A stretch of DNA of 64,000 nucleotides from Ruminococcus sp. (GTDB lineage Bacteria > Bacillota > Clostridia > Oscillospirales > Acutalibacteraceae), in the NCBI GenBank assembly GCA_017457955.1, contig JAFTGL010000005.1:1-64000 (forward strand), written 5' to 3'. The notes under the pieces were generated by a model. That model searched no databases, was not told where the DNA came from, and saw nothing but the letters and a program-made list of their open reading frames with translations. Below, one piece after another: positions 33,689 to 47,750 of the stretch. Every line of letters starts with the position of its first letter. Within the stretch, counting starts at the first letter, position 1. Made by a program: the position numbers and the translations under genes.

Positions 33689-33722
33689 GATCATCGTTAA
33701 CATTTCAATCACAACAAGAACA

Positions 33723-33752
33723 GGAGCGCTTCACTCGAAGCGCTCCCTTTTT
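33723..33752 (+). terminator. Terminator
   Basis: GGAGCGCTTC pairs with GAAGCGCTCC around ACTC, followed by CTTTTTC. Confidence 0.92.
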
Positions 33753-33808: not shown

Positions 33809-35155
33809 TCAGGCTAAATGACCGTTTTTCTTGATAATGTCGATGACCTGATCGACATACTTCTCGCAGATCTCGTCACTTCCTGCCTCGACCATGACGC
33901 GGATGACAGGCTCGGTGCCGCTCTCGCGGACAAGGATTCTGCCGTCGTCGCCTAGCTCCTCGGTGACCTTCTTGACAGCCGCCTGGACGTCGGGGTCATT
34001 CTGCGCGTCGGGCTTCGACTTCACGCGGACATTCTTCAATACCTGCGGATAGAAAACGCAGGGAGCCGCCAGCTCGCTCATGGGCTTCTCCTTCGCCAGC
34101 ATGACCTCCATCATCTTGAGAGAGGTGAGGATGCCGTCGCCGGTGGTGGCGTACTTGCTGAAGATGATGTGACCGCTCTGTTCGCCGCCGATACGGTTGC
34201 CGGTCTGCACCATGTTCTCATAAACGTACTTGTCGCCGACCTTGGTCTTGTCGTACTCGATGCCGACCTTGTCGAGCGCCTTGTACAGACCGAAGTTACT
34301 CATAATGGTGGTGACGACCTTGTTGTTTAAGAGCTTTCCGCGCTCCTTCATATATAGACCGTAGACATAGAGGATGTGGTCGCCGGTGACGACGTTGCCC
34401 TTCTCGTCCACGCACAGGCAGCGGTCAGCGTCGCCGTCATAGGCAAAGCCGATATCCAGCCCCTTCTCGACCACAAACTTCTGTAAGTGCTCAATGTGGG
34501 TGGAGCCGCAGTCGGTGTTGATATTGTAGCCGTCGGGAGCGTCGTTCATGACGTAGGTCTTTGCGCCCAGCGCGTTGAACACACCCTTCGCGATCTGCCA
34601 TGCCGCGCCGTTGGCGACATCTAAGCCCACCTTTACGCCCTTGAAGCTGTATTTGCTCATGGAGATCAGGTAGCCGATGTAGCGGTTGCGTCCCTCGACA
34701 TAGTCAACGGTTCTGCCGATAGCGTCGCGCTCAGCGACGGGAATGTCGATCTTGCCGTCGATATATTCCTCTACCTTTAAGAGGGTCTCTTCCTCCATCT
34801 TCTCGCCGTTGCCGTTGAGCACCTTGATGCCGTTGTCATAGTAGGGGTTGTGAGAAGCGGAGATCATGATACCGCAGTCAAAGTCGTCGATACGGGTGAT
34901 GTAAGCGACGGAGGGGGTGGTGGTGACGTGCATGATGTAAGCGTCAGCGCCGCTTGCCATCAGACCGGTGCACAGCGCGTACTCGAACATGTACGAAGAA
35001 CGTCTGGTGTCCTTACCGATCAGCACCTTCGCCTTTTTGCCCTGATTCGCGCCGTAGTACCAGCCGAGGAAACGGCCGATCTTGATGGCGTGGTCAAAGG
35101 TCAGATCCTTGTTGGCTTCACCGCGGAAGCCGTCTGTACCGAAATACTTGCCCAT
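33809..35155 (-). CDS. glmM: Phosphoglucosamine mutase
   Basis: Converts glucosamine-6-phosphate to glucosamine-1-phosphate for UDP-GlcNAc. The 448 residues include the phosphoserine loop ISASHNPYYDNGIK, the metal-binding loop FAYDGDADRCLCVD, the sugar loop GGEQSGHIIF and the phosphate-binding RESGTEPVIRVM. The start MGKYFGTDGFRG is typical. It begins 5 bases after the acyltransferase stop, with AGAGG as RBS. It is the third gene of the ribozyme-led operon, which places all GlcN6P-handling steps under one control. Confidence 0.96.
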   Translation of the reverse strand: MGKYFGTDGFRGEANKDLTFDHAIKIGRFLGWYYGANQGKKAKVLIGKDTRRSSYMFEYALCTGLMASGADAYIMHVTTTPSVAYITRIDDFDCGIMISASHNPYYDNGIKVLNGNGEKMEEETLLKVEEYIDGKIDIPVAERDAIGRTVDYVEGRNRYIGYLISMSKYSFKGVKVGLDVANGAAWQIAKGVFNALGAKTYVMNDAPDGYNINTDCGSTHIEHLQKFVVEKGLDIGFAYDGDADRCLCVDEKGNVVTGDHILYVYGLYMKERGKLLNNKVVTTIMSNFGLYKALDKVGIEYDKTKVGDKYVYENMVQTGNRIGGEQSGHIIFSKYATTGDGILTSLKMMEVMLAKEKPMSELAAPCVFYPQVLKNVRVKSKPDAQNDPDVQAAVKKVTEELGDDGRILVRESGTEPVIRVMVEAGSDEICEKYVDQVIDIIKKNGHLA

Positions 35156-35160
35156 TTTGA

Positions 35161-35817
35161 TTACCTCTTTTCTACGATCTCGCCGCTGTTTTTGTAAATG
35201 CAGTTCTCCGGAACCACGCCGCGCACGCAGGAGGTCGGATAGACGTTAGAGTGTCTGCCGATCACGGTGCCGGGGTTGCAGACGGCGTTGCAGCCGACCT
35301 CGACATAGTCGCCGAGCATCGCGCCGAATTTTTTGAGACCGGTCTCGATCTTCTCGGTGCCGTTATGTACCACGACGAGCTGCTTGTCGGACTTGACGTT
35401 CGAGGTGATGGAACCCGCGCCCATGTGGGAGAAGTAACCGAGGATCGAGTCGCCGACGTAGTTGTAATGCGGGGTCTGCACGTGGTCGAACAGGATGACG
35501 TTCTTTAATTCCGCGGAGTTGCCGACGACGCAGTCAGCGCCGACCAGAGCCGAGCCGCGGATGAAAGCGCACTGGCGCACCTCGGTGTTCGGGCCGATGA
35601 TGCAGGGAGCGCCGAGATAAGCGGAATCAAAAACCTTGGCGGTCTTGTGGACCCAGACCTGGGGAGCACGCTCCTCATAGTCGTCGCCCAGCGTCGCGCC
35701 GAGTTCGATGATCATGTCCTTGATACCCTTCAGCGCTTCCCACGGATAGGTAAATCGGGAAAGATAATCCTTCGCGAGGGTGTGGTCAAGGTCATATAAA
35801 TCCTTGATAGTATACAT
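35161..35817 (-). CDS. Left-handed beta-helix acyltransferase, GlmU C-domain-like
   Basis: A 218-residue hexapeptide-repeat protein without a nucleotidyltransferase domain. The motif GNSAELKNVILFDHVQTPHY, then NYVGDSILGYFSHMGAGS and NVKSD, parallels the acetyltransferase part of GlmU. There the histidine before Y-x-G-D is catalytic. It most likely acetylates glucosamine-1-phosphate or a related sugar phosphate. Its ATG overlaps the nagB stop (TAATG) and glmM follows 5 bases later, so all three are coupled. A longer frame extends into nagB but has no RBS. A separate uridylyltransferase would be needed elsewhere. Confidence 0.85.
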   Translation of the reverse strand: MYTIKDLYDLDHTLAKDYLSRFTYPWEALKGIKDMIIELGATLGDDYEERAPQVWVHKTAKVFDSAYLGAPCIIGPNTEVRQCAFIRGSALVGADCVVGNSAELKNVILFDHVQTPHYNYVGDSILGYFSHMGAGSITSNVKSDKQLVVVHNGTEKIETGLKKFGAMLGDYVEVGCNAVCNPGTVIGRHSNVYPTSCVRGVVPENCIYKNSGEIVEKR

Positions 35818-36608
35818 TAAAGTCTCTCCTTCTTCTCGATATCGAGGAAGTATTTGTAAGCGCCGACGGTCAGCTCGTCGCAGGCAGCCTCGTCGCAGGC
35901 GATGATCGCGCCGTTGTGCATCTGCAGAGCGGAACAGGTCCACTTGTGGCTGACAGAGCCCTCTACGGTCTCAGCCAGCGCCTTCGCCTTATTGTGACCG
36001 TTGATGAGGATGAGAACTTCCTTACTGTCGGTAACGGTGCCTACGCCGACAGACAGCGCCTGAGCGGGAACAGCCTCGGGATCGTTGCCGAAGAAGCGGG
36101 AGTTCACGATGCGGGTGTCGGTGGTCAGGTTGCGGACGCCGGTGCGGGAAGAAAGGCTGGTGAACGGCTCATTGAACGCGATGTGACCGTCAACGCCGAT
36201 ACCGCCCATGAACAGGTCGATGCCGCCGTAGGATGCGATCTTCTCTTCATAGCGAGCGCACTCGCCCTCGGGATCGTCGGTCATGCCGTTGAGGATGTTG
36301 ATGTTCTCGGGCTTCATGTCGACGAGGTGATCGAAGAAGTTGTCGTGCATGAAGTACCAGTAGCTCTGGTCGTGCTCGTGAGGCAGACCGAGGTATTCGT
36401 CCATGTTAAAGGTGACGACGTTCTTAAAGCTGACCTCGCCCGCCTGATTCATGCGCGCCAGTTCCTTGTAAACGCCGATGGGCGAAGAACCGGTCGGCAG
36501 GCCGAGGATAAAGGGGCGATCCTCTTTGTGGTTGTTGATCTTCCTGGCGATGTAATCCGCAGCCCATTTGCACATCTTATCATAATTGTCCTGAATAATA
36601 ACTCTCAT
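35817..36608 (-). CDS. nagB: Glucosamine-6-phosphate deaminase/isomerase
   Basis: Interconverts glucosamine-6-phosphate and fructose-6-phosphate plus ammonia. The 263 residues contain [27 protein letters not shown] (catalytic Asp), [14 protein letters not shown] (catalytic His) and [11 protein letters not shown]. Start [12 protein letters not shown] at 36608 follows GGAGGT. The gene usually serves catabolism, but here a glmS-type ribozyme lies in its leader and glmM follows in the operon. I infer that it may make GlcN6P from fructose-6-phosphate and ammonia in place of GlmS. No nagA or sugar transporter gene is near. Confidence 0.95.
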
Positions 36609-36694
36609 AATATACCTCCGTAAATATCGGTAAAGTTTATTTTTTATATAAGCGACAGGAGAACCTCTGTTACAGTGTTGATTCTGCTTTTTCC

Positions 36695-36834
36695 TTTCTC
36701 CCTTACGACCCGCCGTGCTGAAAATATATAAATATACCTTCTTTTCCCAAAACGCTTCAGCACACAGCCGTGACAGCATCCGCCGAATCTTTCGATCGCT
36801 GCCAACCTCGTCAACCCATTACGGTCCCGGCGCT
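36695..36834 (-). ncRNA. glmS-type self-cleaving ribozyme in the nagB leader
   Basis: The minus strand reads AGCGCC at the expected cleavage site (between 36834 and 36833). It continues with a short P1 (GACC/GGTT), GTTGACGAGG, the P2 arm TGGCAGC, ATCGAAAGATTCGGCGGATG, and the closing arm GCTGTCA. These are the conserved core pieces of glmS ribozymes in correct order. A further stem (GTGCTGAA with TTCAGCAC, 36715-36763) follows in the P3 position. GlcN6P would trigger cleavage and lower expression of the operon. The 3' border is approximate. Confidence 0.85.
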
Positions 36835-36915
36835 AATAAACCCCTTATCCTCCTTCCGCAAGGCTATTTTACATCATCGGGCAGTCATATCATATATATG
36901 TACCCAATCGTCAAA

Positions 36916-36944
36916 AGTTTACCATATATATAGGGAAAAGTCAA
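36916..36944 (-). promoter_or_regulatory. Promoter of the ribozyme-nagB operon
   Basis: TTGACT, 17 bases, TAAACT on the minus strand. A second candidate lies at 36887-36914 (TTGACG, 16 bases, TGATAT), nearer the ribozyme. Confidence 0.6.
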
Positions 36945-36971
36945 GAAAAAAGGCTCTCCGGACGGAGAGCC
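36945..36971 (-). terminator. Terminator of galE
   Basis: GGCTCTCC pairs with GGAGAGCC around four bases; the minus strand continues with six T. Confidence 0.9.
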
Positions 36972-36991: not shown

Positions 36992-37999
36992 TCAATATCC
37001 CTGCGGATTGTTCTTCTGCCAGTTCCAGCTGTCGCGGCACATTTCGTCGATGCCGTACTGCGCTGTCCAGCCGAGCTCCTCTTTCGCTTTGGAAGCGTCC
37101 GCGTAGCACTCCGCGATATCGCCCGCGCGGCGGGGCTTGATATCGTAGGGGATCTCGATGTCGTTGACTTTCATGAACGCCTTGACGATATCCAGCACGC
37201 TGTAGCCGACGCCGGTGCCGAGGTTGAAGATCTCCGTGCCCTTGTGCGCGGCGGCATACTCGATGGCTTTCAGGTGACCCTTCGCCAGATCCACGACATG
37301 GATGTAATCACGCACGCCGGTGCCGTCGGGGGTGGGATAATCGTTGCCGAACACGCCGAGACGCGGCAGTTTGCCGACCGCTACCTGCGTGATATAGGGC
37401 ATGAGGTTGTTCGGGATACCGTTGGGATTCTCGCCGATCAGTCCGCTTTTGTGCGCACCGATGGGATTGAAGTAGCGCAGCAGCACCACGCTCAGCTCCT
37501 TGTCGGCAGACGCGGCGTCGGTCAGGATCTGCTCGTTCATGTACTTTGTCCAGCCGTAAGGATTGGTGCACGAGGTCGGCATTCCCTCTTTGAGCGGCAC
37601 TTCCTCGGGAATACCGTAAACGGTCGCCGAAGAACTGAACACGATATTGTTCACGCCGTGCTTCTTCATCACTTCCAGAAGCGTCAGCGTAGTGTCGATA
37701 TTGTTGCGATAGTAGCGCACGGGGATCGCACAGCTCTCGCCCACCGCTTTCAGACCCGCGAAGTGTACCACGGCGTCGAAGTTCTCTTTCTCAAACATCG
37801 CGTCCACCGCGGCGTTGTCTGCGACGTCCAGCTCATAGAACGCGGGACGCTTGCCTGTGATGGTCTCGATGCGGTCGATGACCTTCGGGGAGCTGTTGTC
37901 GAGGTTGTCGGCGATGACGACCTCATACCCCGCTTCCAGCATTTCCACGGCGGTATGGCTGCCGATATAGCCCGCACCGCCTGTCAGTAAAACTTTCAT
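36992..37999 (-). CDS. galE: UDP-glucose 4-epimerase
   Basis: Short-chain dehydrogenase of 335 residues that interconverts UDP-glucose and UDP-galactose. It shows LLTGGAGYIGSHTAVEM (NAD binding), VVHFAGLKAVGES, FSSSATVYG and the catalytic NPYGWTKYM (Y-x-x-x-K). The C-terminal substrate region ends SWNWQKNNPQGY. AGGAGGCTG precedes the ATG. It lies behind the PglF-like gene on the same strand, separated by a small inverted repeat, so both may serve surface polysaccharide supply. Confidence 0.96.
   Translation of the reverse strand: MKVLLTGGAGYIGSHTAVEMLEAGYEVVIADNLDNSSPKVIDRIETITGKRPAFYELDVADNAAVDAMFEKENFDAVVHFAGLKAVGESCAIPVRYYRNNIDTTLTLLEVMKKHGVNNIVFSSSATVYGIPEEVPLKEGMPTSCTNPYGWTKYMNEQILTDAASADKELSVVLLRYFNPIGAHKSGLIGENPNGIPNNLMPYITQVAVGKLPRLGVFGNDYPTPDGTGVRDYIHVVDLAKGHLKAIEYAAAHKGTEIFNLGTGVGYSVLDIVKAFMKVNDIEIPYDIKPRRAGDIAECYADASKAKEELGWTAQYGIDEMCRDSWNWQKNNPQGY

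Positions 38000-47633: not shown

Positions 47634-47750
<117 letters not shown>

Follow-up and report, generated by a model that had tools for sequence, protein, structure and literature searches.

The window, by which we mean the whole 64,000-nucleotide stretch of Ruminococcus sp. DNA that was analyzed, carries three closely spaced genes on its reverse strand. The first, nagB (35817..36608, −), encodes a glucosamine-6-phosphate deaminase/isomerase of 263 aa that scores 381.1 bits against TIGR00502 (cut-off 236.9) and thus belongs to the NagB family; searches against PDB sequences also match it to deaminases (best E = 4e-101). The second (35161..35817, −), whose ATG shares one base with the stop codon of nagB, encodes a left-handed β-helix acetyltransferase of 218 aa. 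Profile and homology searches relate this protein to the C-terminal half of GlmU and to archaeal GlmU-type enzymes, and it falls under every full-length GlmU cut-off; it is therefore GlmU-like in the acetyltransferase half only and is not a full-length, bifunctional GlmU. Five bases separate it from the third gene, glmM (33809..35155, −), which encodes a phosphoglucosamine mutase of 448 aa (TIGR01455, 541.5 bits; cut-off 447.55). The gene calls of the original prediction, which placed a GlmU-like acetyltransferase and glmM behind nagB, hold. The span that it gave, 35161–36834, covers the acetyltransferase gene (act below), nagB, and the leader as far as the expected cleavage-site A36834, but the ribozyme reaches 36845 and glmM falls outside.

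The inferred promoter of the operon is a sigma-70-like site, TTGACT-17-TAAACT with a TG ahead of the second box (36916..36944, −), assigned by consensus only in a stretch where seven promoter-like sites were found and 2.4 were expected. A terminator-like hairpin with a T run (36952..36971, −; consensus scan only) closes the upstream galE-like gene (36992–37999, −), an ORF named by inspection, and a second terminator-like hairpin, with a weak T tail, lies 3′ of glmM (33722..33747, −; consensus only). The only Rfam hit in the window other than the one described next is a 5S rRNA match (47634–47750, −), and no tRNA was found in the window.

Judged by its sequence, the nagB leader contains a complete glmS-class self-cleaving ribozyme (36647..36845, −), comprising the core, a P3 with an insertion, P4, and P4.1, which heads the compact nagB/GlmU-like acetyltransferase/glmM operon. 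The Rfam covariance model RF00234 matches 36845–36676 (−) with 38.8 bits (E = 1.5e-5), above its gathering score of 37, and this is the sole glmS-class match in the window and in the whole assembly. A scan of the window for TTAGCGCC..GGTTGACGAGG gives a single occurrence, and none of 100 shuffles contains the pattern. We also built a model, R2, from an alignment of 26 relatives (24 of the genus and two of family f14) from which the window was left out; it aligns end to end with 36845–36647 (−) at 139.3 bits, with P4 and P4.1 included and intact. Together with the shuffles, this score rules out a chance match, and the ribozyme core that the original prediction had recognized in the nagB leader is confirmed by both models. 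A core model, R1, scores 94.5 bits on the window, which belongs to its training set. The R2 alignment places a 48-nt insertion in P3 (36717..36764, −), and the low Rfam score is probably due to this enlarged P3, which causes the Rfam alignment to misplace the 3′ part including P4. The catalytic core (36765..36845, −; alignment A2) spans the region of helices P1, P2, P2.1, and P2.2. The expected cleavage site (A/GCGCC, 36833..36834, −) follows from homology to the conserved AGCGCC motif, within which the cut presumably falls between A36834 and G36833.

In alignment A2, 45 of the 84 core columns are invariant across 48 sequences of the genus, AGCGCC among them. In the same 48 core sequences, P1 and P2.1 together show 27 cells with double changes, a number that none of 500 shuffles reaches, and 99.4% of cells are paired, which none of 500 shuffles equals; only three pairs carry such changes, however, and 75 of 500 shuffles reach this figure. 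The R2 consensus structure has 33 pairs, 15 of which have changed on both sides one or more times; P4 and one outer helix also covary in this consensus of 26 relatives. Because kinship among the sequences can beat such shuffles, we give the known fold more weight than the covariation numbers. A conserved core and covarying helices thus accompany the covariance-model score; the usual site, the leader of glmS, is replaced by the leader of nagB, and site is not a defining feature of the class. The window score barely above the Rfam threshold and the altered P3 would suit a relic, or an RNA with another ligand, in which a glmS-like fold moved with the cassette and no longer responds to GlcN6P. We find this very improbable in light of the invariant columns, of the compensatory changes in P1, P2.1, and P4, and of RF00234 scores of 56–72 bits at 28 of the 48 places in the genus.

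The assembly from which the window derives (1.83 Mb, 15 contigs, 74% complete) has one nagB and a full glmS (C3:172767–174587, 768 bits) on the same contig as the nagB operon. The idea that NagB replaces GlmS in this organism and gives it a GlmS-independent route to GlcN6P is therefore contradicted, and the genome is not a case of GlmS replacement of the Giardia kind. In principle, GlcN6P could be made here by both GlmS and NagB. The search for glmS elsewhere in the genome, proposed with the prediction, hence returned an intact gene, but one without a detectable ribozyme: none was found at the glmS region by the RF00234 scan of the assembly, by an Rfam rescan of the locus, or by R1, a model that is tuned to nagB-type ribozymes (43.7 and 27.1 bits on two of glmS type) and that a divergent ribozyme could escape. 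As nagA has no match in the 74%-complete assembly, the locus does not resemble a catabolic nag regulon in this respect, and the combination that would speak against the prediction, a glmS with its own ribozyme together with a nagA/nagE set under joint control with nagB, did not turn up in this genome.

We surveyed 100 genomes of the genus, the own genome included. Ribozyme counts in all surveys of more than 40 genomes are lower bounds, with stricter filters and at most 7, 9, or 25 candidates scored per genome. RF00234 is present in the genus at at least 48 places in at least 46 of the 100 genomes, and the gene behind it is nagB at 47 of the 48; the remaining place (G045, L047) runs off its contig. 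At each of the 27 places read far enough (of the 48; window included), act and glmM follow nagB. A nagB (TIGR00502) was matched in 53 of the 100 genomes, among them all 46 with the ribozyme, and no ribozyme was found in the genomes of the 100 that lack nagB. The other seven nagB genomes consist of five with a different nagB (G016, G025, G041, G055, and G099; 35–39% identity over the aligned part), G004, where the contig ends within nagB, in front of act-glmM, and G052, which retains a remnant.

All gene absences reported here rest on draft genomes. For nagA, none of the 100 genus genomes exceeds the cut-off of 225.65 bits (best partial match, 34.5 bits; weak partial matches in 56 genomes), which 7 of 14 controls pass. 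For glmS, 87 of the 100 genomes are above the cut-off, including 42 of the 46 with ribozyme-nagB. The genomes below it are G004, G006, G014, G016, G025, G033, G041, G055, G057, G059, G076, G085, and G099, and 10 of these 13 carry nagB or a piece of it. Four of the 13, namely G016, G033, G055, and G099, are at least 90% complete, and each of these carries nagB. In the genus, nagB presence and glmS absence show no significant association (Fisher p = 0.07 for all genomes and p = 0.11 for those with ≥90% completeness). A hidden ribozyme in the glmS leaders of the genus was also considered, and R1 found none at 31 loci (of 87 glmS genomes), nine of them from ribozyme-nagB genomes.

Beyond the genus, the pairing with glmS prevails. 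Across 394 genomes of the order, RF00234 is found at at least 100 places in at least 99 genomes, two of them in the own genus; of the 98 places outside it, 86 lie before glmS, two before nagB, and one before glmM, and the remaining nine have no glmS, nagB, or glmM behind the ribozyme in the stretch read. Two loci of family f19 (L189 in G174 and L192 in G214) have the ribozyme ∼170 and ∼135 bases, respectively, ahead of an ORF that by eye resembles a Na/Pi cotransporter. RF00234 matches without glmS, nagB, or glmM behind them also occur at L171, L190, L193, L204, L208, L221, and L235, where mostly no clear same-strand gene is nearby in the stretch read (by eye). Among 300 genomes of family f14, at least 44 places in at least 44 genomes match, 34 before glmS, nine before nagB, and one before glmM-act-nagB, and none of the 44 ribozyme genomes has a second RF00234 match.

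Of the ten f14 genomes with a ribozyme of the nagB or glmM-act-nagB type, seven have glmS over the cut-off, G612 (65% complete) has a weak match only, and G373 and G543 have no match. G373, rated 100% complete, carries ribozyme-nagB with glmM elsewhere and no match to nagA; G543 (94% complete) carries ribozyme-nagB-act-glmM. At the G373 locus (L399), ribozyme-nagB has no adjacent act or glmM and lies downstream of ORFs that by eye resemble surface-sugar genes (UDP-GlcNAc 2-epimerase-like and cytidylyltransferase-like).

Within the genus, the five genomes with the different nagB (completeness 99% for G016, 97% for G099, 92% for G055, 83% for G025, and 66% for G041) have only weak partial matches to glmS and nagA, below the cut-offs, and pair this nagB with glmM. 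In all five (L124–L128), nagB lies directly behind a glmM that carries an XRE-type HTH domain at its N terminus, a fusion of 540 aa (Pfam run on one of the five; coordinates in L124, 2040–3662). The HTH-GlmM fusion could possibly be a self-regulating enzyme in place of the ribozyme. A hidden ribozyme at this glmM-nagB pair was sought and found at none of five loci with R1 and at none of three with Rfam. G016, G055, and G099 have a second, ordinary glmM.

Two further congeners show damaged genes. In G033, rated 100% complete and with ribozyme-nagB, glmS is broken over three frames with a stop (L398:1102–2816), possibly a pseudogene or an assembly error. In G052 (L130:6601–7300), a promoter-like box, similar by eye to that of the window, is followed by a short in-frame nagB remnant and act-glmM, with no ribozyme detected, and a single deletion appears to have taken the ribozyme and most of nagB together. 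In G373 and in the five congeners without glmS or nagA over the cut-off, it is plausible that NagB replaces GlmS, and in some relatives NagB is possibly the only known enzyme that makes GlcN6P.

A set of named relatives was drawn from the best 80 of 590 NagB loci in public genomes, many with rumen or gut sample names; it overlaps the sampled genomes through identical NagB sequences in at least six cases (L245/G062, L246/G042, L248/G094, L250/G018, L253/G027, and L261/G688). R1 finds the ribozyme at 36 of these best 80 loci (E below 1e-12), not counting a match at E = 0.5 that we discarded. Among the carriers is the named strain Ruminococcaceae bacterium P7 (L249), whose record does not bear a metagenome-assembly title and whose genome (G492) contains glmS but gives no match to nagA. 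The order is nagB-act-glmM at 18 loci and, with an extra glmM piece, at one more; act-nagB-glmM at three and, behind a glmS piece, at one more; act-glmM-nagB at two; nagB-glmM at two; nagB-act, cut by the contig, at one; glmM-nagB-glmS at one; and nagB alone at seven. At all 36 the ribozyme lies ahead of the first cluster gene, with the exception within L272 that the glmS piece is upstream of the ribozyme. The ribozyme-free L289 reads nagB-act-glmM-glmS.

These arrangements bear on which gene the ribozyme serves. All three genes usually stand together behind it, and glmM is the first gene in G434, which would agree with a ribozyme that serves the acetyltransferase and glmM, nagB being a passenger that balances the GlcN6P pool. 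Yet nagB follows the ribozyme with no act or glmM detected behind it at 7 of the 36 loci (one of which, L259, is near a contig end) and in G373, G052 keeps act-glmM while its nagB is a remnant and its ribozyme is undetected, and nagB-free genomes of the genus yielded no ribozyme; a passenger nagB is accordingly quite unlikely in our judgment.

At three named loci the operon genes are far closer to those of the window than glmS is: 88, 89, and 87% identity for nagB, act, and glmM in L272 versus 50% for glmS; 87, 85, and 85% in L289 versus 51%; and 76% for nagB and 83% for glmM in L299 versus 49%. These differences point to a transfer of the cassette between lineages, and the NagB tree, which mixes families, agrees. 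In this tree (midpoint root, bootstrap not settled), 84 of the 85 ribozyme-linked rows fall inside a single set (103 rows, support 96/91), in which the own genus and f14 are intermingled with records titled Lachnospiraceae and Erysipelotrichaceae and one Chloroflexota, titles that may be wrong for MAGs. The ribozyme label needs 13 changes on the tree, so a single clean gain is not supported. The main clade includes 19 NagB loci with no ribozyme assigned, and a search for a hidden one gave no match at the Rfam gathering score at any of them. The segment RTRIK of solved deaminases, which we take to be the GlcNAc6P allosteric site, reads RTGVR in the window NagB and in most NagB rows with or without the ribozyme; the lost allosteric arginine, common to ribozyme-free relatives too, was thus rejected as a marker of ribozyme-linked NagB.

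In the 32 named ribozyme-nagB genomes searched (of the 36 loci), glmS is at least partly present in 26. The other six (G494, G502, G512, G516, G523, and G529) all have nagA over the cut-off and could for that reason live by salvage. Since glmS is missing from 8 of 18 ribozyme-free nagB genomes versus 6 of the 32, its loss is not peculiar to ribozyme-linked NagB. There is also no clear difference in nagA, which is present in 14 of 32 ribozyme-nagB genomes versus 11 of 18 ribozyme-free ones.

Those 14 nagA carriers would suit an ordinary deaminase that disposes of surplus GlcN6P, with cleavage raising expression, for example by freeing the ribosome site or leaving a stable 5′-OH end, a catabolic, substrate-induced arrangement. 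NagB is usually catabolic (PMC4281351), and cleavage in these hosts might have such an outcome. Nevertheless, we regard this explanation as unlikely, as the ribozyme also heads act-first and glmM-first clusters and one that ends in glmS, not one of the 100 genus genomes has nagA over the cut-off, and the genes searched in G373 would then include no known source of GlcN6P. The effect of cleavage described for Bacillus subtilis is also the opposite, Collins and colleagues having reportedly observed in 2007 that it destabilizes the mRNA. The glmS ribozyme is a feedback switch of glmS, and negative feedback by GlcN6P is homeostatic if NagB makes GlcN6P; were NagB removing it, cleavage would allow GlcN6P to climb further.

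We therefore favor a biosynthetic NagB. Taking together the ribozyme, the gene cluster and its conservation, the lack of an above-threshold nagA among congeners, and the relatives without detectable glmS, all read from sequence, we consider it likely that the leader is a GlcN6P-activated ribozyme that gives negative feedback to an ammonia-using biosynthetic NagB operon, beside GlmS in this organism. NagB would convert fructose-6-phosphate and free ammonia to GlcN6P, GlmM would convert GlcN6P to GlcN1P, and the GlmU-like acetyltransferase, if GlcN1P is its substrate, would yield GlcNAc1P. A rise in GlcN6P would cause the leader to cut itself, the presumably co-transcribed mRNA would be lost, and synthesis would halt. 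NagB chemistry uses ammonia, ammonia is high in the rumen, and its use as the nitrogen source would spare glutamine. Gut ammonia at comparable levels is cited in the Akkermansia paper (PMC5902328).

The reversed NagB of the original prediction survives in this form: a biosynthetic, feedback-controlled enzyme appears to fit best with the neighbors, the nagA lack, and the glmS-less relatives, but the own genome keeps glmS, as do most genomes with ribozyme-nagB, so it is not evident why a NagB synthase would be required. More tentatively, at just short of even confidence, we suggest that ribozyme, nagB, act, and glmM form a horizontally spreading cassette through which gut bacteria can make cell-wall amino sugars from ammonia under feedback control by GlcN6P. 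In many hosts this route would duplicate GlmS, in some (G373, G543) it would replace GlmS fully and NagB would be essential, and a second lineage would have arrived at NagB-based synthesis as well, with the HTH-GlmM fusion instead of the ribozyme.

In two families of one order, as well as in other bacteria of the rumen and gut, the RNA class known from glmS is thus found ahead of the gene for another enzyme that converts these sugar phosphates into each other, and the regulation itself argues for the running direction of an enzyme filed as catabolic. If the proposal is right, NagB points the wrong way in the annotation and in the metabolic models of many gut bacteria, GlcN6P synthesis can draw on ammonia and dispense with glutamine, and entry to the amino sugars of peptidoglycan need not always be through GlmS alone.

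Compared with known glmS ribozymes (RF00234), the window element shares the sequence core, the cleavage motif, and the P1/P2.1/P4 architecture, and it likewise lies upstream of a gene for an enzyme of Fru6P/GlcN6P interconversion; it differs in standing before nagB, in the same-genome glmS having no detectable ribozyme, and in the very variable size of P3. The window NagB is homologous over its full length to the Escherichia coli-type enzyme (TIGR00502) and has the DGH..AFNEP motif, to which we ascribe an active-site role, but unlike the E. coli type it has the ribozyme, biosynthetic neighbors, and no nagA over the cut-off in its genus. A functional precedent is found in Giardia lamblia, whose NagB, an anabolic GlcN6P deaminase induced on encystment, was measured to make GlcN6P from Fru6P and ammonia efficiently, taking the place of the absent GlmS, according to the available portion of PMC4281351. 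G373 and the five glmS-less congeners would be comparable in having NagB-family GlcN6P synthesis without GlmS; unlike these bacteria, Giardia is a eukaryote, that portion mentions no ribozyme, and the window genome retains glmS. Akkermansia muciniphila is, like relatives such as G373, a gut bacterium with nagB and no glmS. In the available portion of PMC5902328, however, it needs GlcNAc or GalNAc, no ribozyme or glmM linkage is described, and the Km of its NagB is 41 mM with ammonium and 5.5 mM with Fru6P; because amination was judged unlikely in vivo at physiological levels, this enzyme is a counter-precedent to amination by NagB. A full-text literature search, with the 2011 and 2012 surveys of McCown and colleagues outside its scope, returned no report of a glmS ribozyme before nagB, nor do the available portions of PMC11602151, PMC7967978, and PMC3766115 contain one. 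Both the ribozyme class and the enzyme family are already known; what is likely new is the pairing of ribozyme and nagB, with a probably reversed role for the enzyme.
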